Source of the DNA: Sedimenticola selenatireducens DSM 17993
Lineage (GTDB): Bacteria > Pseudomonadota > Gammaproteobacteria > Chromatiales > Chromatiaceae
Assembly (NCBI RefSeq): GCF_000428045.1
Contig: NZ_ATZE01000010.1
Location: 90,072 to 154,071 of the forward strand
Length of the DNA: 64,000 bases
Reading direction: 5' to 3'
In this document: positions 2,929 to 19,420 of the stretch, piece by piece
How positions within the stretch are numbered: the stretch's first letter is position 1
Layout: every line of letters starts with the position of its first letter
Position numbers and translations under genes: made by a program
The notes under the pieces: model-generated
What the model saw: only the letters and a program-made list of their open reading frames with translations
Database searches by the model: none
What the model was told of the DNA's origin: nothing

Positions 2929-4254
2929 TCAAGCCGGTTGCGAAATATCGTACCGCTTCATCTTCTCCCACAGGTTCTTTCGACTGATGCCGAGACTTTC
3001 CGCAGTCTCGGCTATGCGCCATTCATGGTGCTCCAGGGTCTCCCGCAGCAGGCGCTCTTCGTAGTGCTCCATCGCCTCTTTCAGAGAGAGGTGATCCGGT
3101 GACAACAACGGCTCCTCCCCGGAAGCGCCAAACTCGCGCGGGCCCAGAACCTCCTGTGGAGAGAGGATGCAGGCCCGTTCCACGGCATTCGCCAATTCAC
3201 GCAGGTTGCCCGGCCATGGCTGCGCTTCCAGGTAACGCTCGGTCAAGGGCAGAATCAATCGACGCGCCTGGTGTTCATTGAAATAGTTTTCCACGACGCG
3301 ATGAGCGAGCCAGAGAATATCCTCTTTACGCTCCCGCAGCGGCGGGATGTGCACGTGGGCCACGTTGATCCTGAAATAGAGGTCCTCGCGAAACTCCCCG
3401 CGATCGACCATCGCCTTCAGATCCCGGTTGGTGGCGTAGACCAGGCGCACATCCACTGGAATTTGATCCTCACTGCCGATCGGCTGCACCACCCGTTCCT
3501 GAATGGTACGCAGCAGCTTGGCCTGCATGCGCGGCGAGGTCTCGCCCACCTCATCGAGAAACAGCACCCCGCCACTGGCCTGCTCGAACATCCCGCGCCG
3601 ACTCTTGGTGGCACCGGTAAAGGCTCCCTTGACGTGGCCGAACAGCTCGGCCTCCAGCAGATCCTCGGGCAGTGCGGCGCAGTTGATGGCGATAAACGGC
3701 TTGTCAGTACCCTTATTGTAACGCTGGGCGAAATAGCGGGCCGCATACTCTTTGCCGACACCGGACTCCCCGGTTATCAGCAGATCCACCCGGTGCGCCG
3801 CCAGGCGGTCCAGGGTGTTTTTGATTTGCCGCATTGCCGGGGACACCCCAAGCTCCGCATTGCCCTGATGCATGTCCTCGAACAACGAGGGTGACACCTC
3901 CCTCAGTTTCGCCAGCAGATCATCGAGATCAAATGGCTTGGTAATGTAGTCCCTGGCCCCGAGCTTGAGCAGGCGTACCGCCTGGTCGATGGTGCCATAC
4001 CCGGTGATGAAGATGGTGGGAGGAGGTGGTCGTTCCGAATCCAGCAGCCGGATATAAAGGTTTTCACCGCTCATATCCGGAAGCCGGATATCGCTGATCA
4101 GGGCTGCATACTGCCGCTCCGCCAATGCGCCCAGGGCCTCTTCGGCATGGGTGAAGCAGTCGCAGCCAATATCTTCGATCTTGAAACGCTGGCACAGAGA
4201 GGCACGCATGATGGCATCATCCTCGACCAGGCACAGACGAGAGGTGTTGATCAC
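2929..4254 (-). CDS. Sigma-54-dependent NtrC-family response regulator
   Basis: 441 residues in three domains: receiver (phospho-acceptor Asp in LISDIRLPD, conserved Lys in ITKPFD), central AAA+ domain with Walker A GESGVGKE, the GAFTGA loop that contacts sigma-54, and a C-terminal Fis-type helix-turn-helix ending near SLGISRKNLWEKMKR. It starts with GTG one base inside the kinase stop (TAGTG), so the two are translationally coupled. It is the last gene of the long minus-strand run and probably activates the sigma-54-like promoter at 19534-19549 that heads the run (inference). Confidence 0.95.
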   Translation of the reverse strand: MINTSRLCLVEDDAIMRASLCQRFKIEDIGCDCFTHAEEALGALAERQYAALISDIRLPDMSGENLYIRLLDSERPPPPTIFITGYGTIDQAVRLLKLGARDYITKPFDLDDLLAKLREVSPSLFEDMHQGNAELGVSPAMRQIKNTLDRLAAHRVDLLITGESGVGKEYAARYFAQRYNKGTDKPFIAINCAALPEDLLEAELFGHVKGAFTGATKSRRGMFEQASGGVLFLDEVGETSPRMQAKLLRTIQERVVQPIGSEDQIPVDVRLVYATNRDLKAMVDRGEFREDLYFRINVAHVHIPPLRERKEDILWLAHRVVENYFNEHQARRLILPLTERYLEAQPWPGNLRELANAVERACILSPQEVLGPREFGASGEEPLLSPDHLSLKEAMEHYEERLLRETLEHHEWRIAETAESLGISRKNLWEKMKRYDISQPA

Positions 4255-5690
4255 TACGTCTCCTTTATCGGCAATTCCACAACAAACTGTGTTCTTCCGC
4301 CACGGGATTTTACCTCAATATTACCCTCCAGCTGGTGCACCAGCTGGTAGGTTACCCAGAGCCCGAGACCATTGCCCGTGGCGTTCTCGGAGAAGGGTTC
4401 GAACAGGCTCAGCTTCTGCTCCCGGGAGATGTTCGGTCCCTCGTTGACAACGCTCAGGCAGAGCCGGTTTTCACGGTTTTCCACAAGGCAGTGTACCGCC
4501 CCCCCTTCCGGGGAGGCCTGCACGGCATTCAGCGACAGGTTGATCAGTACTTGCCTGATCGGCGTCGAGGGCAACGCGACATCCCCCTCCAGGCAATTGC
4601 GCCAATCCAGCCTGATCTGCTTTCGACTAACGTCCGCCAGCAGTAGCATGCGCACATCATTGACATCTTTGGGGCTCAGACTGTGGCTGCGCGGATTGGC
4701 CTCCACCAGCAGTGCGGAAACGGTTTCCCGAATCTGTTGCAGCCCCCGTTCAATCAAATCAAAAGTTTCCCGGCCCAACGCGTCTGTCTCACTGTAGCGA
4801 CGAAAGGTATTGAGCGCGTTCAACATACCTCCCAGCGGATTGTTGATCTCGTGGGCCACCCCCGCCGCCAACCGGCCAACGGCAGCCAGCCGTTCAGAAG
4901 CCAGCATACCGGATTCCAGGCGCTCTTTCTCATCCAGCTCACCGAGCATCTGTTGAAAACTGGTCCCCAGCCGGCCTATCTCGTCCTTGCCCTGGCGCAG
5001 GTCACAGGTAATCTCCTCGTTGCTGCCACGTCCCACCTTGGACATGCAGTTGGCCAGGTGGCCGAGCGGCTTGACCATTCGATTGCCCAGATACCAGCCG
5101 AACGGCAACAGCAGAACCGTTACCAGCAGGGCGGAAACCACCACCCGCTCAACGATGGCAATAAACCTTGGCCAGAACAGTGCCCGGTCATAGCCGATCA
5201 CCAGTGTGCCCATGGCAACCCCGTCACTCAACATCGGCAGGATCACATAGAGGCGCTGGTCATTCGGGTATTCGTAGGGACGCGGCCGCAGGTCGCCGGT
5301 CAACCTCAAAACCTCCGCTTCAACACGCGCCAATTCCGCCCCGTGCGCACGCAACGGCGTGGTTACCGCCAGCTCCTTGGGACGATTGGAGACATAGATG
5401 CGACCATCCTTGTCCAGCACTACCAGCAAGCGGCTGGATGTCTCCCCGGACCACCCCTCAGCCGCCTGCACCAGGCGGTAGGCGCCCCAGAGATCATCGT
5501 GCAACATGGCGTTGGGCAGGCTGTTGGAGAGCACGCTGCCAATCTCCACCGCATTGTTGAACACCTCCTCGCGCAGCTCCTCGTAAGCACGCCAGGTAAG
5601 TGCAAGCGTGACTACGCTGGCGGTGATCAGAATCACCAGGGTGAACATCAGCGGCACCTTGATCCGGTAGCTGATATCCCCCATCTTCAT
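4254..5690 (-). CDS. Membrane sensor histidine kinase
   Basis: 478 residues: one N-terminal membrane helix (about 10-32), a periplasmic region of roughly 150 residues, a second helix around 180-205, a HAMP region, a HisKA domain with the phosphorylatable His in GVAHEINNP, and an HATPase domain with NEGP and GNGLGLW. The start codon overlaps the stop of the PhnD-like binding protein (ATGA), and the stop overlaps the response-regulator start. The order binding protein, kinase, regulator suggests the binding protein presents a ligand to this kinase. TtrS-type tetrathionate kinases carry a PhnD-like domain fused to the kinase; here it is a separate protein. Confidence 0.93.
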   Translation of the reverse strand: MKMGDISYRIKVPLMFTLVILITASVVTLALTWRAYEELREEVFNNAVEIGSVLSNSLPNAMLHDDLWGAYRLVQAAEGWSGETSSRLLVVLDKDGRIYVSNRPKELAVTTPLRAHGAELARVEAEVLRLTGDLRPRPYEYPNDQRLYVILPMLSDGVAMGTLVIGYDRALFWPRFIAIVERVVVSALLVTVLLLPFGWYLGNRMVKPLGHLANCMSKVGRGSNEEITCDLRQGKDEIGRLGTSFQQMLGELDEKERLESGMLASERLAAVGRLAAGVAHEINNPLGGMLNALNTFRRYSETDALGRETFDLIERGLQQIRETVSALLVEANPRSHSLSPKDVNDVRMLLLADVSRKQIRLDWRNCLEGDVALPSTPIRQVLINLSLNAVQASPEGGAVHCLVENRENRLCLSVVNEGPNISREQKLSLFEPFSENATGNGLGLWVTYQLVHQLEGNIEVKSRGGRTQFVVELPIKET

Positions 5691-6547
5691 TGGGCATCCT
5701 CCAGTATCCGCACCGACTCGGCCACGCCATCGTACAGGCTGTCCTCGCCCTCCGTGAAGCCATCCAGATTCAGACGTTGCAACAGTCGCCTGCCTTCGGT
5801 AACGGAGGCCATTTTCAACAGGGCGTTGCGCAAGGCGGAAAAATTCGCCGGGGAAATATCCCTGCGCACTACCAGCGGCGGAAACCCGAACAGCGGAGAC
5901 TTGCTCACCAGGCGGGTGCCGGCTGTCAGCGCCGGTTCATGCCGGGAGAGTGTCTCCCACACATAGCCATCCACCGCGCCACCCTGGGCCACGCCATCGG
6001 CCACCGCCTTCACCACATCCCGGTGCGCCCAGGCAAAAAAAGTCTTGGAAAAGAAATGCTTCGGTTCCAGCCCCTCCCTGATCATACTGACCTGGGGGTA
6101 GAGAAAGCCGGAATTGGAGTTCGGGTCGGAGTAGGCAAACACCTTGCCCTTGAGATCCACGATACCCTGGCTCACGCTATCGGTGGTGGGAACAATCAGA
6201 TAGGAGCGGTAGAGTGGCTCGCCGTTAAACAGGGGCACCGCCAGCAGTTTCAGCTGCTCCCGGTTGCGTACATAGGGAAAACCGCAAATCCAGGCCGCAT
6301 CCAGGTCCCCGCCGAGCAGCAGATCCGTCACCTCCTCGTAGGTCTGGCGCTGGATGAACTGGACCGGGCGCTGCAGGGAGTTGGAGAGGTAGTCCTGCCA
6401 CTCCTTGAGAAAGGATGTCTGATCGGTAAGGATCACCGCGGTCAGGCCTATTCGATAGGTCTTTTCGCTGCTGGCCAACAGATTACCCGCCATTAGCAGG
6501 CAGGCCATCAGCAGAATACAGCGAATTGTTGTTCGGCCCTTGATCAT
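5687..6547 (-). CDS. PhnD-like periplasmic binding protein of a sensory system
   Basis: 286 residues with a signal peptide (hydrophobic segment about residues 9-25, cleavage near LASSEKT) and the fold signature of phosphate/phosphite/phosphonate ABC binding proteins (AWICGFPYV, DPNSNSGFLYP, GFPPLVVRRD). I chose the ATG at 6547; the longer frame from 6730 runs antisense-like through the preceding cytochrome end. No PhnC/PhnE transporter genes are nearby, and it overlaps the kinase gene by 4 bases, so a sensing role is more likely than transport. The ligand is unknown; oxyanions such as tetrathionate are plausible by analogy with TtrS. Confidence 0.87.
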   Translation of the reverse strand: MIKGRTTIRCILLMACLLMAGNLLASSEKTYRIGLTAVILTDQTSFLKEWQDYLSNSLQRPVQFIQRQTYEEVTDLLLGGDLDAAWICGFPYVRNREQLKLLAVPLFNGEPLYRSYLIVPTTDSVSQGIVDLKGKVFAYSDPNSNSGFLYPQVSMIREGLEPKHFFSKTFFAWAHRDVVKAVADGVAQGGAVDGYVWETLSRHEPALTAGTRLVSKSPLFGFPPLVVRRDISPANFSALRNALLKMASVTEGRRLLQRLNLDGFTEGEDSLYDGVAESVRILEDAQ

Positions 6548-6614: not shown

Positions 6615-7544
6615 TCATCGCTCCCGCTCCGCCCTGGTTGGCACGAATCGCGCCAGCTCCACCAGCACCACCTGGTCGGGATCAACCTCGTCCAGCTCCC
6701 CCGCCCTGAAGCGATAAACCAGCTTAGCACGAATCACCCCGGCTGCTTCATGCAGCGGGATTTCGAGCACACGGCCCGTACCTGGCGGCAGTGTGTTCTG
6801 CCGCCAGCCGGCGCTGGCCGAATGGAGCCATCCGAAGCGGTAGCGCCGACTGTCCAGCATCCGCTCCTGTGCGTCGCGCTGTTCAACCAGCAGCCAGACC
6901 GCGCGTCCAGTGGTTCCGCCCGGCAAGGCGTGTCCCGCGCGGTGCCGAATCTGCAGCAGCGCAACCCCGCCCTCCGCATCATGCCGAAAGGCCATCCTCA
7001 AGGTGGCGATGCCCTGCAGAAAGCCGGGCCGGGTCGGCCCCCGGAAATCATGACTGTTGCCACTCCCTTGCAGGTGGCAGGTCAGGCAGTCCTCGCCCCG
7101 GCGGGCCGCCGGCGAGTCGAGGAAGCCCTGCAGCGTGATCTCTCCCGGCGCATCATGGCAGCGGGCACAGACCTCCGGCACTTGCAGGGCAGGATAGGGG
7201 TGTCCATTCGCACCATGGCAATCGGTGCAGATGACACCTTCGGAACCCGAGGGGGAGTGACAACCAAGGCAGGCCTTCGGTTCACCCTTGCGCCGCCATT
7301 CATCGAGAAACGTTTCGGTGCGCGCCGCCACGGCCATGCGGCTGCGCTCAAACCCGGCCTGTTGCCGCGGGTGACAAGCGGCGCAAGAGGCCGACTCATC
7401 AGGGGGGTAAGCGGTTTCGGAGCAGGCCAGCAGCGGAAAAAAAAACAGAACCACAACCCGTGCCAAATCAAATCCGGACAGATGCTTCCCGACTATTCCT
7501 GGGAGGGTTACCGGTCGCCTGACTACTGCGGTCAACATCCTCAA
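6615..7544 (-). CDS. Five-haem c-type cytochrome lipoprotein
   Basis: 309 residues with a hydrophobic N-terminus ending in a lipobox-like LLAC, then five CXXCH haem sites: CAACH, CLGCH, CTDCH, CARCH and CLTCH, all in the first half. The second half is a haem-free beta-rich region. It is probably an outer- or inner-membrane-anchored periplasmic electron carrier. The frame begins with TTG overlapping the stop of the rhodanese-like gene (TTGA); an ATG two codons later (7538) is the alternative. It belongs to the operon headed by the molybdopterin complex and may link it to another redox partner. I cannot name the family beyond multihaem cytochrome c. Confidence 0.82.
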   Translation of the reverse strand: MRMLTAVVRRPVTLPGIVGKHLSGFDLARVVVLFFFPLLACSETAYPPDESASCAACHPRQQAGFERSRMAVAARTETFLDEWRRKGEPKACLGCHSPSGSEGVICTDCHGANGHPYPALQVPEVCARCHDAPGEITLQGFLDSPAARRGEDCLTCHLQGSGNSHDFRGPTRPGFLQGIATLRMAFRHDAEGGVALLQIRHRAGHALPGGTTGRAVWLLVEQRDAQERMLDSRRYRFGWLHSASAGWRQNTLPPGTGRVLEIPLHEAAGVIRAKLVYRFRAGELDEVDPDQVVLVELARFVPTRAERER

Positions 7545-8011
7545 TCAAACACCTGGGACGGGCTGCCGCCCTCGCACAAGCCCCTGGGAATAAGAAAGGG
7601 GACACTGCCAGGCCGGGTGTAGGTGGATTGCGGAATCTCCACACTACCGCCTGCCTCGACCCAACCCGCGATGCCACCCTCCAGTATCCACACCTGGTGA
7701 CCGGCGTCGGTGAGACGGGCAAACCAGGCCTCCACCAACTGTTCGGAGGCACCTTCCGGCAGCAACAACACCAGCCCCCCGCCACCATCAGGCAAAAAGC
7801 CGCTCGGTTCGACTCCGCCATCCAGCGCCCCGGCAAGGGTTCCGGCACGATACGCAGCGCGGCCACGCACATCCAGGATCAACGGCGGATCGGCTGTATC
7901 CAGCCACGCCTGCAACTGCCCGGGGCTGACGCCTGGCCAACGGGCAGAAAGGTCGCCAGACCCCAGCAGCAGAAACACCGCCAGGAGCAGCAGGATAAAC
8001 AGGGGCCTCAC
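7541..8011 (-). CDS. Exported rhodanese-like domain protein lacking the catalytic Cys
   Basis: 156 residues: N-terminal hydrophobic signal segment (about 3-18) and one rhodanese domain (PPLILDVRGRAAYRAG ... VWILEGGIAGW). At the place where active rhodaneses have a Cys-containing loop the sequence reads LLLPEGASEQ, with no cysteine. Sulfur transfer by the usual persulfide mechanism is therefore unlikely, and a binding or structural role is possible. It starts with GTG overlapping the upstream stop (GTGA) and is coupled to its neighbours. Confidence 0.8.
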   Translation of the reverse strand: MRPLFILLLLAVFLLLGSGDLSARWPGVSPGQLQAWLDTADPPLILDVRGRAAYRAGTLAGALDGGVEPSGFLPDGGGGLVLLLPEGASEQLVEAWFARLTDAGHQVWILEGGIAGWVEAGGSVEIPQSTYTRPGSVPFLIPRGLCEGGSPSQVFD

Positions 8012-8763
8012 ACCGTGCCTGCCGGGGCATCTCCCTGACCTATGCGGATGGGCACCTGCTGCAGCGGCACGCGGGGAATCAGCGCCTGCCTCAGTCGTTC
8101 CATGCCGGACTCCCGGGCCAGAGCCTCACCAACCACCACCGCCGATGCGCCGCCAGCCCGGGCCAGGTTTTGCAGGTACTTCAATTCGGAAACACCACCG
8201 GACAGCCAGATCGACAGGGGGCCACCCCGAACCCTGTCCAGCACATCCAGATCCAGCCCCTTGCCACGGGACTCGGCCGCTTCGGAGTGCAGCCACAGTG
8301 AATCGAACCCCAGCTCGGCGGCCCGGGTGACCGCCTCGGAAAGCAAGGTCTCGCCATCACTCACCCGCCAACCCTTTATTGCCGCCGTATCCGGCATGTA
8401 GAAGGAGAACCCTTCGCCGACCGCAGGTCCTGAGAATCGATAACTGGTTTCCGGCTTGAAGACAGTCAGCCGGGGCACCCAGTGCAGGCCGGGCCAACGC
8501 TCCTGCAGTCGGGCGGTCGCTTCCAGTCCCTGGTCACAGATCCAGCGGCTACGTTCGCCATCTTCACGCCACTCCACATCACGCGCCGGATCACCCGCCA
8601 GCAGCAGCGCGGTCTCAAACACCAGATTCCCCAGCCGTTCCGGGGTGCAGCCGCACGGATTGATCACCAGGCCATCAGCACCGGCCAGCCAGGCGTCCGC
8701 CTCCTGTTGCATATCCTCAGCTTCTGGTTGGTACTGTACAAACAGTTTGGTCTCTTCACTCAT
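8008..8763 (-). CDS. Uncharacterised TIM-barrel-like protein
   Basis: 251 residues, soluble, with alternating beta/alpha pattern. The C-terminal half contains IWLSGGVSELKYLQNLARAG followed by AVVVGEALARESG, resembling the phosphate-binding end of HisA/TrpF-like barrels. No catalytic set was recognised, so no function is assigned. It is in the operon with the Mrp ATPases and the rhodanese-like protein; a 260-base gap full of palindromic repeats separates it from the Mrp genes, so it may be expressed at a different level. Confidence 0.6.
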   Translation of the reverse strand: MSEETKLFVQYQPEAEDMQQEADAWLAGADGLVINPCGCTPERLGNLVFETALLLAGDPARDVEWREDGERSRWICDQGLEATARLQERWPGLHWVPRLTVFKPETSYRFSGPAVGEGFSFYMPDTAAIKGWRVSDGETLLSEAVTRAAELGFDSLWLHSEAAESRGKGLDLDVLDRVRGGPLSIWLSGGVSELKYLQNLARAGGASAVVVGEALARESGMERLRQALIPRVPLQQVPIRIGQGDAPAGTV

Positions 8764-9023: not shown

Positions 9024-9956
9024 TTAATCATCCAACAGATTTTCCCAAAAGGTTTCGTGTTTGGAGCGCATCTCATCGCTGCTCTCCCGCGTCCGGGATG
9101 CGCGCTCCCGCCCGACCGCCTCACTCACCTCCAGGGCAAGATCGGAAAAAGCGGCGGCAGCCACGCTTTCGGGACGACCAATCACCAGTGGCAGACCACC
9201 ATCGGCCAGCATCTGCCCCTCCGGATCGAGTGGCACGCCGCCCAGGAACTTGACATGCTTGCGTCCGGCCAGGGCCTTTGCCGCACCATCGGGGAACAGC
9301 GGCTGCACCTCACCACAACATGGGCAGAGGTAGCTGCCCATGTTCTCCACCAGGCCGAACACCGGGATATCGAGGTCGTGAAACATGGCGATTCCCCGGG
9401 CCGCATCGACCACCGAGAGTTTCTGTGGAGTGGTCACCAGCACCGCGCCGGTGACCGGAATCTGCTCCAGTATGGTGAGCGGAACGTCACCGGTGCCGGG
9501 CGGCAGGTCCACCAGCAGGATATCCAGCTCCGGCCAGGCGATATCGTGGAACATCTGGGTCAGGGCCTGGGTCACCAAGGGTCCCTTCCACACCAGCGCC
9601 GCCTCGGGTGGCAGGACGTTACCCACCGACACGGTCCAGACGCCGTGATTCTGCACCGGCAGGGTGCGTCCCTCGTCATCCACCGGGAGCTCGCGGTCGG
9701 TACCCATCATGCGGGTGATCGACGGACCGTACAGGTCGGCATCGAGGATGCCGACACGCTTGCCGGCCCGGGCCAGGGCGCAGGCCAGGTTGACGGTGAC
9801 GGTGGATTTGCCGACCCCGCCCTTGCCGCTGGCCACCAGGACGATATCCTCGATCCCGGCAACCGGCGCCTGGGGCTCGGCATACCAGGCCTGCTCACTT
9901 CCGGGATCGCCCCTATTCACCTGCACGTCAATGGGAAACTCCGGTAATCCGCTCAT
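9024..9956 (-). CDS. Mrp/NBP35-family iron-sulfur carrier ATPase (copy 1)
   Basis: 310-residue P-loop ATPase with deviant Walker A GKGGVGKS (about 44-51), Walker A' DADLYGPS, and a CPCC motif providing the CXXC cluster-binding pair in the C-terminal half. It lacks the N-terminal MIP18/DUF59 domain found in copy 2. The start codon overlaps the stop of copy 2 (ATGA). Mrp proteins bind and transfer [4Fe-4S] clusters. Their placement among at least three FeS proteins suggests dedicated maturation of this complex. Confidence 0.92.
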   Translation of the reverse strand: MSGLPEFPIDVQVNRGDPGSEQAWYAEPQAPVAGIEDIVLVASGKGGVGKSTVTVNLACALARAGKRVGILDADLYGPSITRMMGTDRELPVDDEGRTLPVQNHGVWTVSVGNVLPPEAALVWKGPLVTQALTQMFHDIAWPELDILLVDLPPGTGDVPLTILEQIPVTGAVLVTTPQKLSVVDAARGIAMFHDLDIPVFGLVENMGSYLCPCCGEVQPLFPDGAAKALAGRKHVKFLGGVPLDPEGQMLADGGLPLVIGRPESVAAAAFSDLALEVSEAVGRERASRTRESSDEMRSKHETFWENLLDD

Positions 9957-11023
9957 ACCCCTGCCTCCTTCCGCACAGCCAGTTTCAGATCATCGGCGAT
10001 TCGGCTCGCCAGGGCATGGAATAACGCCCCGTTACCGGCACTCTCCCTGGCCACCGGCTCGCCACTGTCAGAACCCACCGCCACCTCCGGAATGAACGGC
10101 AGACTGGCCAGCAGCGGCAGACCGGTCAGGTCTGACAGCCCGGTGGCCCCGCCGGCACCAAACAGGGCACCCACATGTCCGCAACGCCGGCAACTGACCC
10201 CGGCCATGTTCTCCACCAGCCCCAGGCAGGGGACCGCCAGGTCGGCAAACATCTCCAGCCCACGCCGCACGTCATCGATGGCCACCTGTCCCGGGGAGGT
10301 GACGGTGATCACGCCGGACAGTGCCACGACACGGGCCACCGCCAGATGCACGTCCGAGGTTCCCGGAGGCAGGTCCACCAGCAGGATATCCAGGGCGCCC
10401 CAGTCTATATCGTTGAACAACTGCGGCAGCCCCTCGTCCACCAGGGATCCACGCCAGATCAGGGCCTGCGCCTCGGGCAGTAGCAGGCCGATCGACATCA
10501 TGCGTACGCCGAACGCCTCCCGGGGAGCGATACAATCGCCCGCCGCCGTGGTTTCTGCCCGTCCACTCACCCCCAGCAGGGTCGGCGCCGAGGGTCCGTA
10601 GACATCGGCATCCAGCAATCCCACGGCGTACCCCTGCTGCGCCAGAGCCACGGCAAGATTGGCCGTCAGGGTTGACTTGCCCACCCCACCCTTGCCGCTG
10701 TGCACACCCACCACGTGGCGGATACCCGGCAACGAGTCACGCCCGGCAATGGAGCGGGGGCGCGGCTTTACCACAGCGCGCTCAACACCCGGCAGGGATT
10801 CCACCAGCGGGATGATCGCATCAGCCAGCGGTTCCAATGCATCCTCCGCAATCCGCTCCGGGTCCAGCAGCACACGGACGGCACCCGCCGTGGCCACCAC
10901 GTCATACACCTGGCCGGCGCTAACGACATCCGGACCGCCGTCACTCAGACTGAGTTGGCGCAAGCTTTCCAGCACCTGCTGCTCCAGACTCTGTATCGGT
11001 TGATATGAGCAATTCATGGACAT
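9953..11023 (-). CDS. Mrp/NBP35-family iron-sulfur carrier ATPase (copy 2, with MIP18 domain)
   Basis: 356 residues: an N-terminal MIP18/DUF59-like domain (about 10-95) fused to the P-loop ATPase with GKGGVGKS, DADVYGPS and the CRRC cluster-binding pair. This is the standard Mrp/ApbC layout. It overlaps the preceding small cytochrome by 10 bases and the second Mrp by 4 bases. A tandem of one full-length and one short Mrp may form a heterodimer like eukaryotic Nbp35-Cfd1 (inference). Confidence 0.93.
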   Translation of the reverse strand: MSMNCSYQPIQSLEQQVLESLRQLSLSDGGPDVVSAGQVYDVVATAGAVRVLLDPERIAEDALEPLADAIIPLVESLPGVERAVVKPRPRSIAGRDSLPGIRHVVGVHSGKGGVGKSTLTANLAVALAQQGYAVGLLDADVYGPSAPTLLGVSGRAETTAAGDCIAPREAFGVRMMSIGLLLPEAQALIWRGSLVDEGLPQLFNDIDWGALDILLVDLPPGTSDVHLAVARVVALSGVITVTSPGQVAIDDVRRGLEMFADLAVPCLGLVENMAGVSCRRCGHVGALFGAGGATGLSDLTGLPLLASLPFIPEVAVGSDSGEPVARESAGNGALFHALASRIADDLKLAVRKEAGV

Positions 11024-11361: not shown

Positions 11362-12513
11362 CTAGCCGGACAGCATGTCGAGCCACTCGTCATCCAGCTC
11401 CTGTTCATTGCCACATATCCGGCAGTTCTCTTGTCCCGACTGCTCCGGGACAAAGGGTGTCCCGCAACGACCGCAAGGCCGTTGGCGGAGGTGGATTAAC
11501 CGCGAACGGCCCGCCTCCAGCTCTTCCAGGGCGAGGGCGGAATGCGGCACCATCGCCCCTTCGGGGCAGATGCGCTCACACAGCAGGCAGTCAGTGCAGA
11601 GCAGCGGATCGAAGCTCAGCTCCCGTGCCTGGCCACTCTCAGCGGCCTGCAGGGCACCCGTGGGACAGCGTTCGCCGCAGGCCAGGCAGCCACTGCACAG
11701 CGCATTGACCGAACGTGGCGTCCAGGGCAGCGGCGCGTCATCACGCCAGGGTACCCGGCCGATCCGACTCGCCAGCACCGCCTGGTATTGGACCGTGCGT
11801 TGCGGATACACACTGCTCTGGTAGAAAGGCAGCACGTCCGCGTCCGCCTCCTCCGGGCGGAGGCCGGGAACGATCCATTCCGCCGCCTGAGTCACCGCCT
11901 GGGCGCCACCAAAGCGCAGGAAGGCGCGGCGACTCAGGTGGGGTTGATCCTGGTACTCACGCACCGCCTTGCGCGCCCCGTCAGCGGGGGCCAGATCCAG
12001 CAGCGGCGACGCCTCGCCCAGCCATTCGTCGAGGGTCTCGGCAACCTGGCGAAGCCCGTCTCGGGCATCGCCGTAACGGCATTCGGCACAGTGATCCAGT
12101 CCATGCAGGGCCAGTATCTCCACCCCCTCCGCCCGGGCCGCGCTGATCAGGCGCGCATCGAGCACGGCATGGCAGGGGATCACCACACCGCCGCCCGCGC
12201 CGGTGCTGGCACGGCAGTGCAGATCGACCCGCTGCCGCCCTGCCAGGGCGGAGACAAAACGTTCCGGTACAAAACCGCTGGAGCGCAGGGCACCAGCCGG
12301 ACAGCTGGGCAGGCAACTGTTGCAACCGGTGCACTTCTGCTGGTCCAGATCCACGGCATCTGCCGACAGCCGCAGAGCATCGGAGGGACAGACATCGCGG
12401 CAACGGGAGCAGTGCTCCAGGCGGCCGCGCAAGTTGATGCACAGCTCTTCCTCGACGATCATTTCGGATAGCCTCAGGTAACCGTCGGCCTGTTCGGACG
12501 TGGTCATTCGCAT
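11362..12513 (-). CDS. Poly-ferredoxin with four [4Fe-4S] motifs and a zinc ribbon
   Basis: 383 residues. The N-terminal half has two cluster motifs (C25/C35/C38/C42 and C61/C64/C67/C71), then a region with isolated cysteines around HCAECRYGD that recalls MvhD/HdrA-type thiol domains. The C-terminal half has two more motifs (CSGCLACGERCP and CTDCLLCERICP) and a zinc-ribbon-like CGRC...CRIC pair. Between the halves, at residues 194-203, lies SRRAFLRFGG, a twin-arginine-like motif in the middle of the protein. An ATG at 12507 overlapping the previous stop (ATGA) is an alternative start. Probably an electron-transfer partner in the operon; the exact role is unknown. Confidence 0.8.
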   Translation of the reverse strand: MRMTTSEQADGYLRLSEMIVEEELCINLRGRLEHCSRCRDVCPSDALRLSADAVDLDQQKCTGCNSCLPSCPAGALRSSGFVPERFVSALAGRQRVDLHCRASTGAGGGVVIPCHAVLDARLISAARAEGVEILALHGLDHCAECRYGDARDGLRQVAETLDEWLGEASPLLDLAPADGARKAVREYQDQPHLSRRAFLRFGGAQAVTQAAEWIVPGLRPEEADADVLPFYQSSVYPQRTVQYQAVLASRIGRVPWRDDAPLPWTPRSVNALCSGCLACGERCPTGALQAAESGQARELSFDPLLCTDCLLCERICPEGAMVPHSALALEELEAGRSRLIHLRQRPCGRCGTPFVPEQSGQENCRICGNEQELDDEWLDMLSG

Positions 12514-12938
12514 GCCGCTTTCTCCCTGGATTCATCAGCCGCCGGCGCGGCGGCGATCTTACGCCCCAGCCAGTAGGTCAGGGCGACGGCGCTGACCATG
12601 TTGGTCGCCAGCGGCACGTTGTTCAGATCACAGACCCGGTAGAAGGGCGTGATATCCGGTTCGTCGGCAGCCGGGGTCTCCGGGTCGCGAATAAAATAGA
12701 CCGCCCGGATCGTATTGGTACAAACCAGACCGCAGAGCTGGATCTCACCACCTTTTTTTCCAGAGAAGAGGTGAGTGACTTCCAGGCCCAGTTCACGCTC
12801 TATGGCCTCCCCGGTCTCGCTGGTGGCAAGCAGGCGATACTCACTGAAGACCGCCAAGCGGTTTTTGATCAGTTTGATCAGCTCCGGCAGCTTGCGCTCG
12901 TGCGCGATCAGGATCACGGTCTGTCCGGCACCCGCCAT
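12504..12938 (-). CDS. Methylglyoxal-synthase-fold protein with substituted active site
   Basis: 144 residues that align without gaps to the E. coli MgsA core from about residue 64 to 101. Compared with MgsA numbering, His19 and Asp91/Asp101 are kept, but Asp20 is Glu, the catalytic base Asp71 is Glu (SGKKGGEIQ) and His98 is Asp (AADEPD). Methylglyoxal synthase activity is therefore doubtful; the fold may be reused for binding a phosphorylated or anionic ligand. I chose the ATG at 12938, which has a G-rich ribosome site upstream, rather than a GTG at 12947. The stop overlaps the next gene. Why an MGS-like protein sits in a respiratory operon is unknown. Confidence 0.72.
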   Translation of the reverse strand: MAGAGQTVILIAHERKLPELIKLIKNRLAVFSEYRLLATSETGEAIERELGLEVTHLFSGKKGGEIQLCGLVCTNTIRAVYFIRDPETPAADEPDITPFYRVCDLNNVPLATNMVSAVALTYWLGRKIAAAPAADESREKAACE

Positions 12939-12971
12939 GTTATGCACCCCCCAATGTTGTATGGAAGTTGT

Positions 12972-13153: not shown

Positions 13154-14308
13154 TCAAACCTCCGAAAGCGGCGCCGGAAAGGCTGGAAGCCGATACGCCT
13201 CACCACCCGGCAGACACTCCGAGCGGACTTTCAGGTAGAGCTGCCGGTGGTCCTCGGCAAGCCGGTCGATAGACGCAAGGGGATCATCCATGGCCGCGAG
13301 CCTGTCCCTCACCCCGACCAGCCAGCGGGTCTGCTTCAGGCGGCGCTCCATGGCCGCGTGATCATCATGGGCGAAAGTACAACCGTGTATGCCTTCACGA
13401 AATTCGGCGCCCTGCACCCGGTCGGAGCGCAGCACCGGCAGACGCAGCGCGGCGGCCAGATCGAGCAGCGGACTCTTGCACTGCTTGACATAGGGCATCA
13501 GCAGCAGATCGGCATCCCGGAACAGGGCGGCGACCTCCCGGGGTGCCACATAGCGGTCGATCAGGGTGATGCGGGCGGCACGGCTGGCGGCGTCAAGCAA
13601 CGCCTCCGATATACCGCCCAGCACACCCTCGCCCGCCACCACCAGATGTACCGTCCCGGGCCAGTGGTTGCCGGCCACGGTTTCCAGCAAACGGTCCAGT
13701 CCCTTGCGCCGGCAGCCGTGGCCGAAGAACAACAGTCGACGCTCACCCGCCACTTTTTTCGGAGCAGGCGAATCAGCCTGGCATTCCAGCGCCTGCAGCG
13801 CCAGAAAGTTGGGACTGCCGGGCAGTAGCATCAACCGTTCCCCCGGCGTATCCAGCAGCTCCTCCAGGGCCCAGGCCAGGTGTGCGTCACGCGCCACCAC
13901 CCGATCAATCATGCGGTACAACAACCGGTAGGCGGGCATCAGCAGCCAGCGCTTTTCATGGGGCAGGATATTGTGCGGGGTATACACCACCCGCACCCCC
14001 TGTTTGTGCGCCCAGCGCACGAAGCGCAGGGCCCGGAAGGGATTGTCAACCCACTGCAGGTGGACGATGTCGGGACGGGTTTCGATAACCTGCCGACGCA
14101 CACAGCGCCAGCCGCGCCAACCGCCGTCCAGGCAGGCCTGCTTGTGAAACGGCACCGCCCAGTCGCCCAATTCGTCGCGCCGGCCGGTCAGCAGCTGGGT
14201 CTCGATCCCGGCCCGCTGCAGGCCCAGCGCCAGAGCGTGGCTGTAGTGGCTGAGGAATCCGCGACCGGAGGCCTCAACCAGCAACACCCGCGGGTCGTTT
14301 CTGCTCAT
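13154..14308 (-). CDS. GT-B glycosyltransferase (GT4-like)
   Basis: 384 residues with two Rossmann-like halves. The N-terminal half contains DIVHLQWVDNPFRALRF and VYTPHN; the C-terminal half has LLFFGHGCRRKGLDRLL and LIDRYVAPREVAALFRDADLLLMPY, typical of GT4 enzymes. No signal peptide, so cytoplasmic. Its start overlaps the stop of the TorD-like chaperone gene (ATGA), so it is part of the respiratory operon, which is unexpected. Donor and acceptor sugars are unknown. Confidence 0.85.
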   Translation of the reverse strand: MSRNDPRVLLVEASGRGFLSHYSHALALGLQRAGIETQLLTGRRDELGDWAVPFHKQACLDGGWRGWRCVRRQVIETRPDIVHLQWVDNPFRALRFVRWAHKQGVRVVYTPHNILPHEKRWLLMPAYRLLYRMIDRVVARDAHLAWALEELLDTPGERLMLLPGSPNFLALQALECQADSPAPKKVAGERRLLFFGHGCRRKGLDRLLETVAGNHWPGTVHLVVAGEGVLGGISEALLDAASRAARITLIDRYVAPREVAALFRDADLLLMPYVKQCKSPLLDLAAALRLPVLRSDRVQGAEFREGIHGCTFAHDDHAAMERRLKQTRWLVGVRDRLAAMDDPLASIDRLAEDHRQLYLKVRSECLPGGEAYRLPAFPAPLSEV

Positions 14309-15057
14309 AGTCCGGAGGCCTTGCGGAAATCGGCGTCGTAGTCCAGGCGCTTGGGCTCACGCCGGTTCAGCTCCGCCAGTTCGCGCAGACGCCGTCGTTC
14401 TACCCGCTGCTCCAGTTCCGACCAGAGCGCCTGTTCTGCCATCTCCAGCAACCTTTTATAGAACGGCAGCAACGCCGCTTCGGCGGCGCGTCGACACCAG
14501 CCCGGCGCCCACTCGGCCAGCTGCTCCAGCAGGAAGGTCTCACGCTGTGTCCGGTACTGTTCGGCCCGTTCGTTATCTCCGGCAAGCCGTGCGGTCGCCT
14601 CGGCTTCGGCCAGAAAGGCATAAAACCCGAGCATGGTGCCGATATGATCAGGGAACTCCCCGCTCAGGCGGTTGCGATAATCCAGGCCGGCATGGCGATA
14701 GGCCGCCGCGGCGCGATCCGCCGGCTCCTTGAACATGCAACCGGTCTCGACGACCGAGGCGTAAGGGCTGACACAGCCCGGCGCCACGAACAGCCCGGTA
14801 TACTCCTCGGCCAGGGCCTCCACCAGGGTCGCGGTCGGGGTGTGGTAAAAATCCTCGTCAAATCCCAGGCCGGCCGCGGCCAGCGGCCCGCGCAGTTCGC
14901 CGCGGATCAGGTCGATCAGAGCCGCGTCCGCCTCCTCTTCGAGACAGCGTGCCAGAAAGCCGAACAGCCCGGCCAGGGCCTGCGTCTCATCCACCTGCTC
15001 TTGTTCAAAACCGTTTTCCATTATTGCTTCCGATGCCATAGTCGTTGTTGTCTGCAT
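14305..15057 (-). CDS. TorD/DmsD-family molybdoenzyme chaperone
   Basis: 250 residues, all-helical. The pattern LAGLFGFLARCLEEE ... YTGLFVAPGCVSPYASVVETG ... DHIGTMLGFYAFL matches the TorD/DmsD/NarJ-type family, with its conserved EY..LF and DH...ML motifs. Such chaperones bind the Tat signal peptide of a molybdopterin enzyme and assist cofactor insertion. It lies just downstream of the Tat-bearing catalytic subunit. A GGGAGGAG ribosome site lies a few bases before the ATG at 15057, supporting that start. Confidence 0.9.
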   Translation of the reverse strand: MQTTTTMASEAIMENGFEQEQVDETQALAGLFGFLARCLEEEADAALIDLIRGELRGPLAAAGLGFDEDFYHTPTATLVEALAEEYTGLFVAPGCVSPYASVVETGCMFKEPADRAAAAYRHAGLDYRNRLSGEFPDHIGTMLGFYAFLAEAEATARLAGDNERAEQYRTQRETFLLEQLAEWAPGWCRRAAEAALLPFYKRLLEMAEQALWSELEQRVERRRLRELAELNRREPKRLDYDADFRKASGL

Positions 15058-15118: not shown

Positions 15119-17788
15119 TTAGTGGCCGCCGCCATGCAGCTCCGGTTCCGGGAGGCTGTTCCAGTCGATATCCACCTCTTTGTGCTTGGCACGGTGGATG
15201 TCGCCGGTATAGGCGTAGCGCAGGGTCTCCTCGTAATCCTTCATCGAGGCCTCGACGCTGACATCGGTATCACCGTATTTGTCCCCGGGCTGGGCCTTGG
15301 CGACGGTGACCACCGTGTCATACCAGCCCTGGGAACCGCCGATCGGATCCACCGCCAGGCGGATGATCGGATTGGGATGCACTCCCTTGTCGTTCCACCA
15401 GACATTGTTGGCGATATCCGCATCCCCGCCCTGCATGTAATCGGCAGCCTGCTCACGCTGTTTCAGCTGCGCCAGACGTCCGTATGCACTGTGGCCGCAA
15501 GCGGTGGAGATGGCCACCACATCCGGATGGATTCCCTCGGTGACGTGGGCACGAGTCACGATATAACCCAGCGGAGAGGTGACCCGGATCAGGTCCCCGT
15601 CGGAGAGTCCGCGCGCCGCCGCCGTCTTCGGATTGATCCAGGCCGGATTCTTGTGATAGAGCTCGGCCAGGTATTTCAGCGAAGCGGTCCGGCTCTGGGT
15701 GTGCACATTCACCTTGTAGGTGGTGAGCACCAGTTCATCCGGCTTCTTGTCCCGGGAAGGCAGGCGCTTGTAGACCGGCAACGGGTTGAAGCCGTACTTG
15801 CGGTAGCTCTCCTTGTAGATTTCCATGCGCCGCGAGGGGGTGCCGAAGCCGACCATGTTCCGGCCGTTGACCTGCACACCGATCGCCTGCCCGTCCTTCT
15901 TGATGGTGCCGTCGTTATCGACCTCGGCACCGGCCATGTCGGACGCGGAAAGCTCCTTGGTGTAGAGACCGTAATCGGGCTCCACCTCGTTACCGTTCTT
16001 GTCCACGATCTTGGCGGTCTCCTTGTCCACCTCGCCATAGATGGGCCAGACCCCTTTCTTCTTCATGAAGTCCCAGCCGCCATCCTCCTTGAGGCCCGGA
16101 ATCGCATCGAAGTGGGCCCGCATCCAATCCTCGACGCTGTTGAAGGCGAAGTATTTCTTGATTCCCAGGGCGCCATCCGGATCAACCTTGCGGATCACAT
16201 CGATCAGCGTCTGGCGGAACTCCTGGGTGCCGCCCAGCGGTTTGATCACCGGCTGCCGGATGGAGAGGCAGGGATAGAGCCCGCCGGGCATCGACTCGGG
16301 ATCGTGCCGTTCCAGGTAGGTGACATCGGGAATGATCAGATCCGCCAGCTCGGTACTCTCCGACATGTAGGGGCTGAAGGATGCATAGAAGGGCACCGTG
16401 TTTTCGTCGCTCAGCATCTCCTTCCAGACATGACTCGACGGATAGGTGTAGACCGGATTGTCATAGTAGGTCATCCAGACCGACACCTTGGCCTCGCCCT
16501 TCTTGATCATGTAGGGGGCATGCGTCGATACATGATGCGAGGCCAGCGGATAGAGTGGCGGCGCGGCGATTACGCTGGCTGTCTTGCCCTTGGGCGGTAC
16601 CGGCTGCGGCTGCGGCCAGCCCATGCCACGCGGCAGGCAGTACCCCCCTTTCTTCTCCACGTTGCCGGTGATCACATTCAGCATGTTGATGGCTGCTTCC
16701 TGGTAGGAACCCCAGACATGCTTGCAGGGCCCCCGGTAGGAGAAGGTGGTGGCCGGCTTGGTGGTGGCGAACTCGCGGGCGATGCGCCGAATGTCCTTGG
16801 CCGCCATTCCCGACTCCTCCTCGGCAAACTCCGGCGTGTAGGGCTTCAGGTGATCGATCAACTGCCGGGCGCTGACGTTGGTCCAGTTATCAATGAAGTC
16901 GGCATCGTACAGACCCTCATTCATGATTACGTGGGCCATGGCCAGGGCGATGGCGCCATCGGTCCCCGGGTAGGGGAAGTAGGCCTCGTCGGCGAAGCCC
17001 GAGGTGTTGGACATGCGCACGTCGAAGCTCACCAGCTTTGCCTTGTTGCCGACCACACCGTCCACCAGCCGCTGGGCATTGGGATTCATGAAGTAGGCGG
17101 TCTCCAGCACATTGGAGCCGAAGTTGAGGATGTACTTGGTGTTGGCCCAGTCACACGACTCAATATCCGGCCCCCAAGTGGGCTCCAGCCCGACCTTCTT
17201 GGAGGATTCGCAGATATTGGTGTGGTTGAGCATGGTGTTGGAGCCGAGGGCGTGCATAAAGCGGCCCACGGCGCCGCCGGTACGATCACGCCCCCACTTG
17301 AACACCATCTCGTTGAGAATTTCCGGCTTGTGCTCGGCGTTGGCACGATCGATCACCTCGCGCAGTTTGCTGGCTAGCAGGGTGGTGGCCTCGTCGTAGG
17401 AGATACGCTTCCACTTGCCCTCGCCCCGCTTGCCGGTGCGCAGTAGCGGCGTCATGATGCGGTCCGGATCGTAGACATGCAGGAAGCCGGAGTTGCCCTT
17501 GGCGCACAGCTTGCCACGGGTGTTCGGGTGATCCATGTTGCCTTCCAGCTTGACGATACGGCCGTTCTCCACATAGGCGACACCGCCGTCCTCGATATTG
17601 CAGGCCATGCAGGTATAGGGCACCGCCTGGCGTTCCGCACCGGTGGTCGGCGAGTAGTCCTTGCCTCCCAGCTCCTGCTCCATGGCGACCAGGCGACTGC
17701 TGGTCAGGCCCAGGGCGCCGGCCGCAGTCCCCACCGCGCCGCCGAACTTGATAAAATCGCGGCGGGTGAATTTTATAGAGTCACTCAT
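15119..17788 (-). CDS. Tat-exported molybdopterin oxidoreductase catalytic subunit (DMSO reductase family)
   Basis: 889 residues. The ATG at 17788 follows a GAGGAG ribosome site and gives a Tat signal (TRRDFIKFGG). The N-terminal cluster motif is C60-x2-C63-x3-D67-x27-C95, exactly the family spacing, but with Asp where the third Cys is expected. Cys193 (NHTNICESSKK) is the candidate Mo ligand. Subunit order FeS-NrfD-catalytic matches tetrathionate reductase (TtrBCA) and Srd-type selenate reductase operons and differs from cytoplasmic SoeABC. The substrate (a sulfur, selenium or arsenic oxyanion, or polysulfide) cannot be decided from the sequence. It acts in the periplasm, anchored by NrfD. 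Confidence 0.9.
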   Translation of the reverse strand: MSDSIKFTRRDFIKFGGAVGTAAGALGLTSSRLVAMEQELGGKDYSPTTGAERQAVPYTCMACNIEDGGVAYVENGRIVKLEGNMDHPNTRGKLCAKGNSGFLHVYDPDRIMTPLLRTGKRGEGKWKRISYDEATTLLASKLREVIDRANAEHKPEILNEMVFKWGRDRTGGAVGRFMHALGSNTMLNHTNICESSKKVGLEPTWGPDIESCDWANTKYILNFGSNVLETAYFMNPNAQRLVDGVVGNKAKLVSFDVRMSNTSGFADEAYFPYPGTDGAIALAMAHVIMNEGLYDADFIDNWTNVSARQLIDHLKPYTPEFAEEESGMAAKDIRRIAREFATTKPATTFSYRGPCKHVWGSYQEAAINMLNVITGNVEKKGGYCLPRGMGWPQPQPVPPKGKTASVIAAPPLYPLASHHVSTHAPYMIKKGEAKVSVWMTYYDNPVYTYPSSHVWKEMLSDENTVPFYASFSPYMSESTELADLIIPDVTYLERHDPESMPGGLYPCLSIRQPVIKPLGGTQEFRQTLIDVIRKVDPDGALGIKKYFAFNSVEDWMRAHFDAIPGLKEDGGWDFMKKKGVWPIYGEVDKETAKIVDKNGNEVEPDYGLYTKELSASDMAGAEVDNDGTIKKDGQAIGVQVNGRNMVGFGTPSRRMEIYKESYRKYGFNPLPVYKRLPSRDKKPDELVLTTYKVNVHTQSRTASLKYLAELYHKNPAWINPKTAAARGLSDGDLIRVTSPLGYIVTRAHVTEGIHPDVVAISTACGHSAYGRLAQLKQREQAADYMQGGDADIANNVWWNDKGVHPNPIIRLAVDPIGGSQGWYDTVVTVAKAQPGDKYGDTDVSVEASMKDYEETLRYAYTGDIHRAKHKEVDIDWNSLPEPELHGGGH

Positions 17789-17798
17789 CTTTGTCTCC

Positions 17799-18686
17799 TC
17801 AGAAATTGATCTGGGTGAGCTGACCGGCATAGATCAGCACTTCCCTGAAGCTGTAAGCACCCACCGCGCTCAGCACCGCCGCCAGGGTCAGTATTTTTGG
17901 ATCACGACCCAACTTCGGTATGGCGACCAGCACCAGCGGCGCCAGGATCCCGATCAGGAAGGTCATCCCCCAGTACTTGAAGGCAAACTGCTGATTGATG
18001 ATCTCCCACGCCTGCTGCTTCTCGCCGGTGCCGTAGTTGAGCACCACCCACTCGGCCAGGAACAGGGCGAAGGTGACCGCCAGGGAGAGGTAGAGAAACG
18101 CGTGCAGAAACTCGGCAGCCCGCTGGTCAAGTTGACCGCGCAGCAGCTGGATGACCGCCACCACCGCGGTACCGGAACTCATGGATAGAATTACGAACAG
18201 CAGCGGGATGGTCGGGTTGCTCCACAGTTCCCGGGTCTGGTTCACCATCAGATCGAGGCCGGTATAGAGCGGCATGGAGAGTGCCAACAAGGAACCCAGG
18301 ATACCGGTCCAGCGCATCAGGCCCTGGTTATCCTTTATCGATCCGTAATAAAAACCGACAATACAAAGACCGAACAGCGGCAGGAACAGCGAGCCCCAGG
18401 AGAGCGGCGAGGTCCAGTGGAAATAGAGAATCGGGTAGAGGAACCTGGCCGGCTGGCCAAGATCCACGATCAGCAGCGGTCCGCAGATGGCCAGCAGTAC
18501 CAGGGAGGCGATCAGGCCGACCCTCTGGAACGGCTCCATCGACTTCGCCGCACCGCCAAAAACATTGCCGAATACCACGGGTGCCGCGGCGTAGACAAAG
18601 GTCATACCGGCGGCGCCGATCAGGAAGAAGTAGATGACGATTTCGTGCCCCCAGGGGGCGATGTTGTAGTCCATGTACTCAAACAT
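17799..18686 (-). CDS. NrfD/PsrC-family quinone-interacting membrane subunit
   Basis: 295 residues with about eight hydrophobic helices, typical of PsrC/NrfD. The N-terminal GHEIVIYFFLIGAAGM and DLGQPARFLY motifs are family hallmarks. It anchors the FeS and catalytic subunits and exchanges electrons with the quinol pool. Menaquinone is available, as menFDBAC lie in the same window. It starts 11 bases after the FeS gene and stops 10 bases before the catalytic gene. Confidence 0.93.
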   Translation of the reverse strand: MFEYMDYNIAPWGHEIVIYFFLIGAAGMTFVYAAAPVVFGNVFGGAAKSMEPFQRVGLIASLVLLAICGPLLIVDLGQPARFLYPILYFHWTSPLSWGSLFLPLFGLCIVGFYYGSIKDNQGLMRWTGILGSLLALSMPLYTGLDLMVNQTRELWSNPTIPLLFVILSMSSGTAVVAVIQLLRGQLDQRAAEFLHAFLYLSLAVTFALFLAEWVVLNYGTGEKQQAWEIINQQFAFKYWGMTFLIGILAPLVLVAIPKLGRDPKILTLAAVLSAVGAYSFREVLIYAGQLTQINF

Positions 18687-18697
18687 GATGCATTCCC

Positions 18698-19420
18698 CTA
18701 TAGAACACCTGAAAAGAACTTGCTGCCCCGGTTGCGCTGGTAGAACGCCTGCGCATCGGAGCGAGCAGCATAGGATTGCGGCGCGCTGAACACCTGCTCG
18801 GTCTGGGCACGATCCGGCTTGATGTAGTACACCTGCGGACGGGTACCCTTATCCGGCTTCAGCACCACCGTCTTGTGCCGGGCCACCAGGCGCGAGACCT
18901 CGCTGTTGGGGTCGTTCAGATCGCCGAAGATGCGCGAACGGCCCAGGCAGGTCTGTACACAGGCGGGCGCCAGGCCCTTTTCAACGCGGTGATTGCAAAA
19001 AGTGCACTTGTCCACCACGCCGCCGATCTTCACCCGGTCCCGGTTTTTCGGCAGCACGTGGCGCGCATTGTAGGGGCAGGCCGCAATACAGGTGCGGCAG
19101 GAGATGCAGCGTTCATAACGCTGCAATACAAACCCGTCCTCATGCTTGTAAGTCGCCTGGGTCGGGCAGTTACGGACGCAGGGGGGATTGTCGCAATGGT
19201 TGCACAAGCGGGGCATGAAATGACGCTTGGTGTTTGGGTAATGACCGGTATCCTTGACCTTTACAGTAGTGCGCCATACACCAAGCGGCACATCGTATTC
19301 AGCCTTGTCTGCACAAACGCAAGCCATGCAACCGATACATCGACGCAGGTCGACGACCATGGCCCAACGTTTTTTACCGGGCACGCCCAGGGATGGTTCA
19401 GTCTGAAGACCAACGGGCAT
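18698..19420 (-). CDS. Four-cluster [4Fe-4S] electron-transfer subunit (PsrB/TtrB type)
   Basis: 240 residues, no signal peptide, so it probably rides across the membrane with the Tat-bearing subunit. Four Cys groups are visible: C28/C31/C34, CNHCDNPPCVRNCP, CISCRTCIAACP and CTFC...CVQTC. The first group should read C-x2-C-x2-C-x3-C, but position 38 is Asp (CIGCMACVCADK), with an extra Cys at 36. It is the first gene of the run and has an AAGGAGG ribosome site. It passes electrons between NrfD and the catalytic subunit. Confidence 0.92.
   Translation of the reverse strand: MPVGLQTEPSLGVPGKKRWAMVVDLRRCIGCMACVCADKAEYDVPLGVWRTTVKVKDTGHYPNTKRHFMPRLCNHCDNPPCVRNCPTQATYKHEDGFVLQRYERCISCRTCIAACPYNARHVLPKNRDRVKIGGVVDKCTFCNHRVEKGLAPACVQTCLGRSRIFGDLNDPNSEVSRLVARHKTVVLKPDKGTRPQVYYIKPDRAQTEQVFSAPQSYAARSDAQAFYQRNRGSKFFSGVL

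Follow-up and report, generated by a model that had tools for sequence, protein, structure and literature searches.

An aspartate at the third ligand position of the N-terminal cluster motif in a MopB catalytic subunit of Sedimenticola selenatireducens and its relatives

The locus and its catalytic subunit

The window analyzed here is a stretch of 64,000 nucleotides from Sedimenticola selenatireducens DSM 17993 (contig NZ_ATZE01000010.1, positions 90,072 to 154,071). It carries a gene for a MopB catalytic subunit (subunit A), which is adjoined by the genes for a four-cluster Fe-S subunit (subunit B) and a membrane anchor, the arrangement of a CISM complex. These genes and the other features of the locus are listed in Table 1.

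Table 1 Features of the MopB locus, in window positions, and the evidence on which each was assigned
Feature	Position	Strand	Evidence
4Fe-4S subunit B, 240 aa, 16 Cys	18698..19420	-	Pfam Fer4_11; closest solved relative 2vpw chain B
Subunit B motif C28-x2-C31-x2-C34-x-C36-x-D38	19307..19339	-	Alignment to relatives
NrfD-type membrane anchor C, 295 aa	17799..18686	-	Pfam NrfD 2e-39
MopB catalytic subunit A, 889 aa	15119..17788	-	Tat-type start MSDSIKFTRRDFIK; Pfam domains
N-terminal cluster motif C60-x2-C63-x3-D67-x27-C95	17504..17611	-	Translation; alignment with 2vpw and 6cz7
Asp67 codon GAC, third ligand position	17588..17590	-	Translation; homologue codons
TorD/NarJ-type chaperone	14305..15057	-	Pfam Nitrate_red_del 71.6 bits; TIGR03482 below cut-off
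Glycosyltransferase-like protein	13154..14308	-	Pfam; conservation
Methylglyoxal-synthase-like (MGS) protein	12504..12947	-	NF003559 99.8 bits (cut-off 84); TIGR00160 and PF02142 below cut-off
Protein with two 4Fe-4S ferredoxin regions	11362..12513	-	Pfam Fer4
Mrp/NBP35-type ATPase with FeS_assembly_P domain	9953..11023	-	PF10609, PF01883
Second Mrp/NBP35-type ATPase	9024..9956	-	PF10609
His_biosynth-like protein	8008..8763	-	PF00977 24.7 bits (gathering 23.6)
Multihaem c-type cytochrome-like protein	6615..7538	-	Pfam
PhnD-like periplasmic binding protein	5687..6547	-	PF12974 6e-54
Sensor histidine kinase	4254..5690	-	Pfam
Sigma-54 response regulator	2929..4254	-	Pfam

The longest ORF for subunit A encodes 903 aa and extends up to position 17830, which is 14 residues more than the reading from the ATG at 17786-17788. 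The latter start was favoured because an RBS-like GAGGAG lies just upstream, because the NrfD gene has ended before it and because the N terminus read from it (MSDSIKFTRRDFIKFGG) has a Tat-type signal. The Pfam TAT_signal model scored this N terminus just below its cut-off (22.1 vs 22.7).

Subunit A contains both molybdopterin domains (PF00384 Molybdopterin, 76.9 bits; PF01568 Molydop_binding, 69.3 bits; both above gathering) and the N-terminal Fe4S4 domain (PF04879 Molybdop_Fe4S4, 35.7 bits vs a gathering score of 22.7), and was thus placed in the MopB / DMSO reductase superfamily. The PF04879 match begins at ORF residue 85, past the changed ligand described below. In a HMMER alignment, the Cys of the sequence NICESS (Cys193 from the Tat start) stands opposite a Cys of 2vpw, in a column which we take to be the Mo-ligand position. 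A Cys in this column is the mark of the Cys-coordinated group (PsrA/TtrA/ArrA). The first ligand of its N-terminal cluster (FS0) is Cys60 and not the His of subfamily II (NarG/EbdA).

Among the best 25 of 26 matches listed, subunit A reached no NCBIfam cut-off, and none of the other A subunits scored did so among the matches listed. PhsA (NF012032) was the top NCBIfam match among those listed, with 357.5 bits vs a cut-off of 694. The scores for TtrA (107.3 vs 1750 bits), ArrA (184.6 vs 1600), QrcB (153.2 vs 440) and DmsA/YnfE (217 vs 777.7) also fell below the cut-offs. Subunit A is most likely the catalytic subunit of a periplasm-facing and presumably quinone-linked MopB/Fe-S/NrfD complex, belonging to the Cys-coordinated group (PsrA, PhsA, TtrA and ArrA).

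The altered motif and its distribution among homologues

Positions 17501-17620 of the minus strand translate to PYTCMACNIEDGGVAYVENGRIVKLEGNMDHPNTRGKLCA. The first Cys codon of the motif (17609-17611) and the last (17504-17506) delimit exactly the span given in an earlier note on this DNA, which had reported that Asp replaces the third Cys of a canonically spaced motif and that no other ligand is changed. Translation and alignment to solved relatives bear this out. In HMMER residue alignments, D67 is paired with the third Cys of CEGCFWRC in 2vpw and of CQGCTSWC in ArrA (6cz7), each presumably a cluster ligand, and the x2-x3-x27 spacing is equal in members with Asp and members with Cys.

Two other explanations were rejected. 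A sequencing error was ruled out as the Asp recurs in independent assemblies from Gamma- and Alphaproteobacteria. A register shift, or a replacement Cys or His nearby, does not agree with the identical spacing in both types of member.

Homologues were collected with the window protein as the starting point, mostly within Pseudomonadota, by queries covering its relatives, class, phylum and order, the family of one distant match, one small class, genome contigs and plasmids. One of the six search peptides used on the genome contigs held the Asp, which is a bias of that search, and two of the homologue searches scored the best two candidates per genome. The 144 loci gave 114 distinct ORFs of >= 400 aa, a length limit that excluded, for example, the Asp fragment L046. 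Ten more ORFs were excluded as fragments (L031, L032, L116, L095, L015 and L106) or far paralogues (L002-L005); two of these had Asp, six had Cys and two were without the region. Among the 104 homologues counted, the ligands were C-C-D-C in 77 and C-C-C-C in 21, another, truncated ahead of the first ligand, has Cys at the third position, and the remaining five (L081-L084, L108) had lost cluster ligands. The 77:22 ratio of Asp to Cys is not a superfamily frequency since the homologues were recruited by their similarity to a protein of the Asp type. As to whether Asp67 is conserved in a clade or homologues mostly carry Cys, the two outcomes that the earlier note had named, the first was found, and the near homologues are not mostly of the Cys type.

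The Asp rows form four groups, which occur in Gamma- and Alphaproteobacteria. Group 1a (18 rows, 77-100 % identity to the query, CMACNIEDGG) includes Sedimenticola, Ca. Thiodiazotropha, Aestuariirhabdus, Phaeovulum and Rhodobacteraceae. Group 1b (23 rows, 56-59 %, CHVCNIQDGA) includes the Azoarcus sp. KH32C plasmid. Group 2 (42-45 %, CTMCPYFDGG) consists of 16 Asp rows and one row with Cys, L135, and group 3 of 20 rows (38-41 %, CWQCVTRD). The residues ahead of the Asp vary by group (NIED, NIQD, PYFD and VTRD) and the Asp alone is common. The group labels were assigned partly by the motif, and nearest-row identity agrees with them. At motif position +24, His was present in 20/20 group 3 rows, and mostly Gln or Asn in the Cys group.

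A relative of subunit A with 56-60 % identity was present in 20 of 150 sampled genomes of one family. In the host genome (4.59 Mb), a similarity search found 16 MopB-type genes, of which eight have the four-Cys motif with Cys third, four have His first with Cys third, and one, that of the window, has the Asp. L170 and L171 have Pro and then Asp, and L175 is without such a motif.

A quick tree was drawn from 47 thinned rows; the motif columns were omitted, rows with a differing motif were retained and the root was not inferred. Groups 1a, 1b and 2 and the ligand-less rows fell on one side of a branch (SH-aLRT 100), and group 3 (SH-aLRT 100) was nested within a Cys-bearing group (99). No Cys row was placed inside groups 1a, 1b or 3. 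The minimum number of Cys/Asp changes on the tree is three, and a tree in which L135 and the ligand-less rows were constrained to group with all Asp rows was rejected (137 log-likelihood units worse; p-AU 9.6e-43). The Asp codons were GAC (44) and GAT (33) and the Cys codons TGC (15, the codon of L135 being one) and TGT (7), so that GAY and TGY are two bases apart. By a rough yardstick, BLOSUM62 combined with background frequencies, Asp accounts for 3.6 % of the replacements of Cys, which is infrequent without being extreme. The swap from Cys to Asp seems to have arisen more than once. Because Cys is the residue in both the outlying rows and the solved relatives, we read the tree as two gains of Asp among the relatives and one reversal to Cys in L135. 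Independent gains in groups 1 and 2 are also compatible with the tree.

Partner subunit, Mo-ligand column and gene neighbourhood

Of the 16 columns in which the relatives of subunit B have Cys, subunit B itself matches 15, and it has one additional Cys, Cys36. Its Asp38 occupies the position of the last Cys in the first CxxCxxCxxxC motif of the relatives (CIGCMACVCADK in subunit B; e.g. CIGCMACVAACK at the same place in relatives), and the residue aligned with it in 2vpw chain B is Cys. When 60 B rows were aligned, 16 had Asp and 44 had Cys; the Asp rows, which include a query copy and the duplicate pair L024/L144, represent 14 distinct loci. Further B rows, some of them genes already counted, added Asp in the gammaproteobacterial L027 and Cys in 35 rows. 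Within group 1a, Asp38 was present in all 15 gammaproteobacterial loci whose B motif was read, and the three alphaproteobacterial loci read (L026, L029 and L030) all had Cys. The other 15 Cys columns were kept across the 60 rows, with the exception of one position in L141. The additional Cys36 may stand in as a ligand.

The Mo-ligand column of subunit A held Cys in all rows of groups 1a, 1b and 3 (61/61) and in 17 of 21 rows of the Cys group, and in no row of group 2 (0/17) or of the ligand-less set (0/5). The retention of this Cys implies that groups 1 and 3 should be catalytic. Group 2 may have lost ordinary Mo binding, the missing Cys alone being no proof of missing Mo. As group 2 keeps the Asp (16/17) yet is perhaps without Mo binding, the Asp would serve the electron relay and not substrate chemistry at Mo.

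All 16 distinct group 1a loci with enough flank share C-A-TorD and the MGS-like, ferredoxin, two Mrp and His_biosynth-like genes. The B gene was found in each of them except L028, whose contig starts just before A. The glycosyltransferase-like gene was present in the group 1a loci except L024/L144, and the multihaem cytochrome, PhnD-like protein, kinase and regulator in part of them, a count limited by the flanks. In group 1b, the TorD, ferredoxin and His_biosynth-like genes were found in 14 of 14 loci and the PhnD-like gene in 12; ars genes lie near the Azoarcus locus. The six long group 3 loci (L075, L076, L077, L143, L161 and L162) all have genes for a multihaem cytochrome (NapC-type in L075, based on Pfam), B, A, TorD, a PhnD-like protein, a kinase and a regulator, and no NrfD gene was detected in these six.

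The Mrp carriers were also considered as a device for the Asp cluster. This idea is weakened as Mrp genes were found in 0/14 group 1b loci, though group 1b also has the Asp, and as Cys-type MopB genes, in a Natrinema and a Rhodococcus plasmid, have an Mrp gene downstream as well.

The binding protein, kinase and regulator suggest induction by a small oxyanion-like ligand. Such a ligand and the Cys at the Mo position would together point to sulfur, selenium or arsenic, and the substrate of the complex is probably a compound of one of these elements.

Proposed role of Asp67 and comparison with known systems

FS0 would relay electrons between molybdenum and the Fe-S subunit. With moderate confidence, and from sequence comparison for both the Fe-O bond and the cluster type, we favour a [4Fe-4S](Cys)3(Asp67) cluster in the catalytic subunit of this MopB/Fe-S/NrfD complex. 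A carboxylate oxygen of D67 would bind one iron, which would be distinct from the rest and more labile. Ligation by Asp67 is favoured by its place in the ligand column, its invariance within groups, its recurrence, the exchange to Cys inside group 2 and the precedents in other proteins. The Cys of L135 within an Asp group looks as if the two ligands were interchangeable, and the change from Cys to Asp at another ligand position in subunit B points the same way. The swap is probably a real way to build the electron wire of the enzyme, kept across whole branches.

Conservation alone is no proof of ligation since a role in proton transfer can also preserve an Asp beside a [3Fe-4S] cluster; a title in the reference list of PMC13111528 names Asp15 of Azotobacter ferredoxin I as the residue through which protons reach such a cluster. 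It is possible, with clearly lower probability than ligation by Asp67, that FS0 is itself [3Fe-4S]: the fourth iron would not be held without the third Cys, and the Asp would lie at the vacant corner, perhaps as a proton relay. In the parts of the sources available, Asp-bound iron is readily lost in ferredoxins (PMC5411485) and the MopB relative IdrA has an N-terminal [3Fe-4S] cluster (PMC10100899). Direct ligation is nevertheless the simpler account of the Cys found at the same place in L135 and of a two-base change to Asp that recurs. The earlier note foresaw a strong shift in redox potential from an Asp-ligated or a [3Fe-4S] cluster; a large shift would be likely mainly on loss of the fourth iron, since Asp ligation in Pyrococcus furiosus ferredoxin shifts the potential only modestly compared with Cys.

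We consider it unlikely that FS0 is a [4Fe-4S] cluster on three Cys with its fourth iron on water, hydroxide or another residue and the Asp in the second sphere; in that arrangement, the open iron might even serve as a site of reaction. The alignment is unable to separate first from second sphere, and a preprint claims that certain MopB sulfate reductases carry out their reaction at FS0 itself (PMC12636705, in the text available). H87 and K97, close to the motif, are invariant in a 10-row alignment, but H87 is not tied to the Asp, as it is conserved in groups 1 and 2 and is Ser in group 3; moreover, the Asp sits in the ligand column with the spacing unchanged. C212, C384, C507 and C764 of subunit A are also conserved in the 10-row alignment and are possible alternative ligands. 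AlphaFold on 10 sequences gave a mean pLDDT of 41, too poor to place D67.

It is very improbable that the cluster is being lost and the Asp is a step toward cluster-less MopB-like subunits (L081-L084, L108), for although these five rows fall within the same larger clade and group 2 also has no Mo-ligand Cys, groups 1a, 1b and 3 retain that Cys and the other three ligands.

A broader proposal, which we regard as doubtful, is that the electron wire has been rebuilt with carboxylates at two clusters, namely FS0 (Asp67, gained at least twice) and a cluster of subunit B (Asp38, gammaproteobacterial branch only). If so, [4Fe-4S](Cys)3(Asp) centres would be found in a MopB lineage for the first time, with electron transfer coupled to carboxylate protonation or with the labile FS0 iron as a second reaction site.

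If Asp67 binds iron, the first relay cluster of a molybdoenzyme would have been repeatedly retuned by a carboxylate, and one complex would hold two such sites. The natural Cys/Asp pairs (group 3 vs its Cys sisters; L135 vs group 2) could then be used to measure how a single ligand affects the potential, the lability and the direction in which electrons flow. The analysis also flags a conserved respiratory gene set.

In the accessible parts of the open-licence literature (including PMC7331816, PMC10100899, PMC8840923, PMC5411485, PMC8301774, PMC12636705, PMC10609526, PMC9370002 and PMC13111528), we found no Asp on FS0 of a MopB enzyme, and no description of this gene set was found in the open-licence texts available. 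The string 'aspart' is absent from the main text, as far as accessible, of two MopB surveys, the later of which uses 'Asp residue' for the Mo ligand. Where the accessible MopB literature names an Asp, it is as the Mo ligand. A 2023 survey of MopB proteins covers, in its available part, cluster loss, the [3Fe-4S] clusters of IdrA and ActB, and novel lineages still unplaced (PMC10100899).

The best solved relatives of A and B are in PsrABC (2vpw) / PhsA, which likewise combine a MopB protein, a four-cluster subunit and an NrfD anchor, but have Cys both at the third FS0 position and at the place of Asp38 in the B subunit. The ligand set proposed here also occurs in unrelated proteins, as the [4Fe-4S] clusters of Pyrococcus furiosus ferredoxin and DPOR have three Cys and one Asp. 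The same holds for NsrR (PMC5411485, in the part available).

IdrA and AioA are likewise MopB proteins with an altered N-terminal cluster. AioA has a [3Fe-4S] cluster. IdrA combines its [3Fe-4S] cluster with the lack of any amino-acid ligand to Mo (PMC10100899, in the part available).

Subfamily II (NarG, EbdA, PcrA and SerA) likewise has one non-Cys ligand on FS0. This is a His at the first ligand position. According to the accessible part of the EbDH paper (PMC8840923), subfamily II has His on FS0 and Asp as the Mo ligand, whereas here the Asp is third on FS0 and the Mo-ligand column has Cys; the remark in the earlier note that changed FS0 ligands are usually a first-position His matches that paper for subfamily II.

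Group 2 and the Cys-less members are comparable to MopB-like subunits of complexes that have lost cofactors. QrcB is such a subunit. ActB is another (PMC10100899, in the part available), and the window protein differs from both in retaining its Mo-ligand Cys.

The substituted motif of the partner subunit

The partner 4Fe-4S subunit (B) of the catalytic subunit carries a second Cys-to-Asp change, at the last cysteine of its first CxxCxxCxxxC motif, and an extra cysteine was observed two residues ahead of the substituting Asp. When the B-subunit column was compared, Asp was found at this position in all gammaproteobacterial group 1a loci (closest Asp-bearing relatives) whose motif was read (15/15), and Cys in the remaining 44 rows.

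Location of the B-subunit motif and of MopB-type genes in the window's genome
Feature	Contig	Window position	Strand
First Cys motif of B, with Asp		19307-19339	-
L170	C11
L171	C3
L175	C10

MopB-type relatives with altered motifs

Group 2, a set of more distant relatives, lacks the Cys taken as the molybdenum ligand (0 of 17 rows), L070-L074 among them despite their Asp motif. The L070-L074 proteins are perhaps non-catalytic subunits. Genes for c-type cytochromes lie close to these five loci, and in L070-L073 one of them belongs to a cytochrome cd1-like family (Pfam, run on the L070 member).

The window's genome also encodes two MopB paralogues sharing 61 % identity, L170 (CYQCVAGPD) and L171 (CYNCVSGPD), with Pro at the third-Cys place and Asp one residue further on. 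A MopB-like ORF of 1023 aa (L175) has no CxxC within its first 600 residues. The N-terminal cluster cysteines were lost in the MopB-like proteins L081, L082, L083, L084 and L108; L081-L084 retain the B partner and the NrfD-type membrane anchor.

MopB-Mrp pairing

On Natrinema and Rhodococcus plasmids (L165 and L166), an Mrp/NBP35 (ATPase-type carrier) gene immediately follows a Cys-type MopB gene, and thus the MopB-Mrp pairing is wider than the window's clade.
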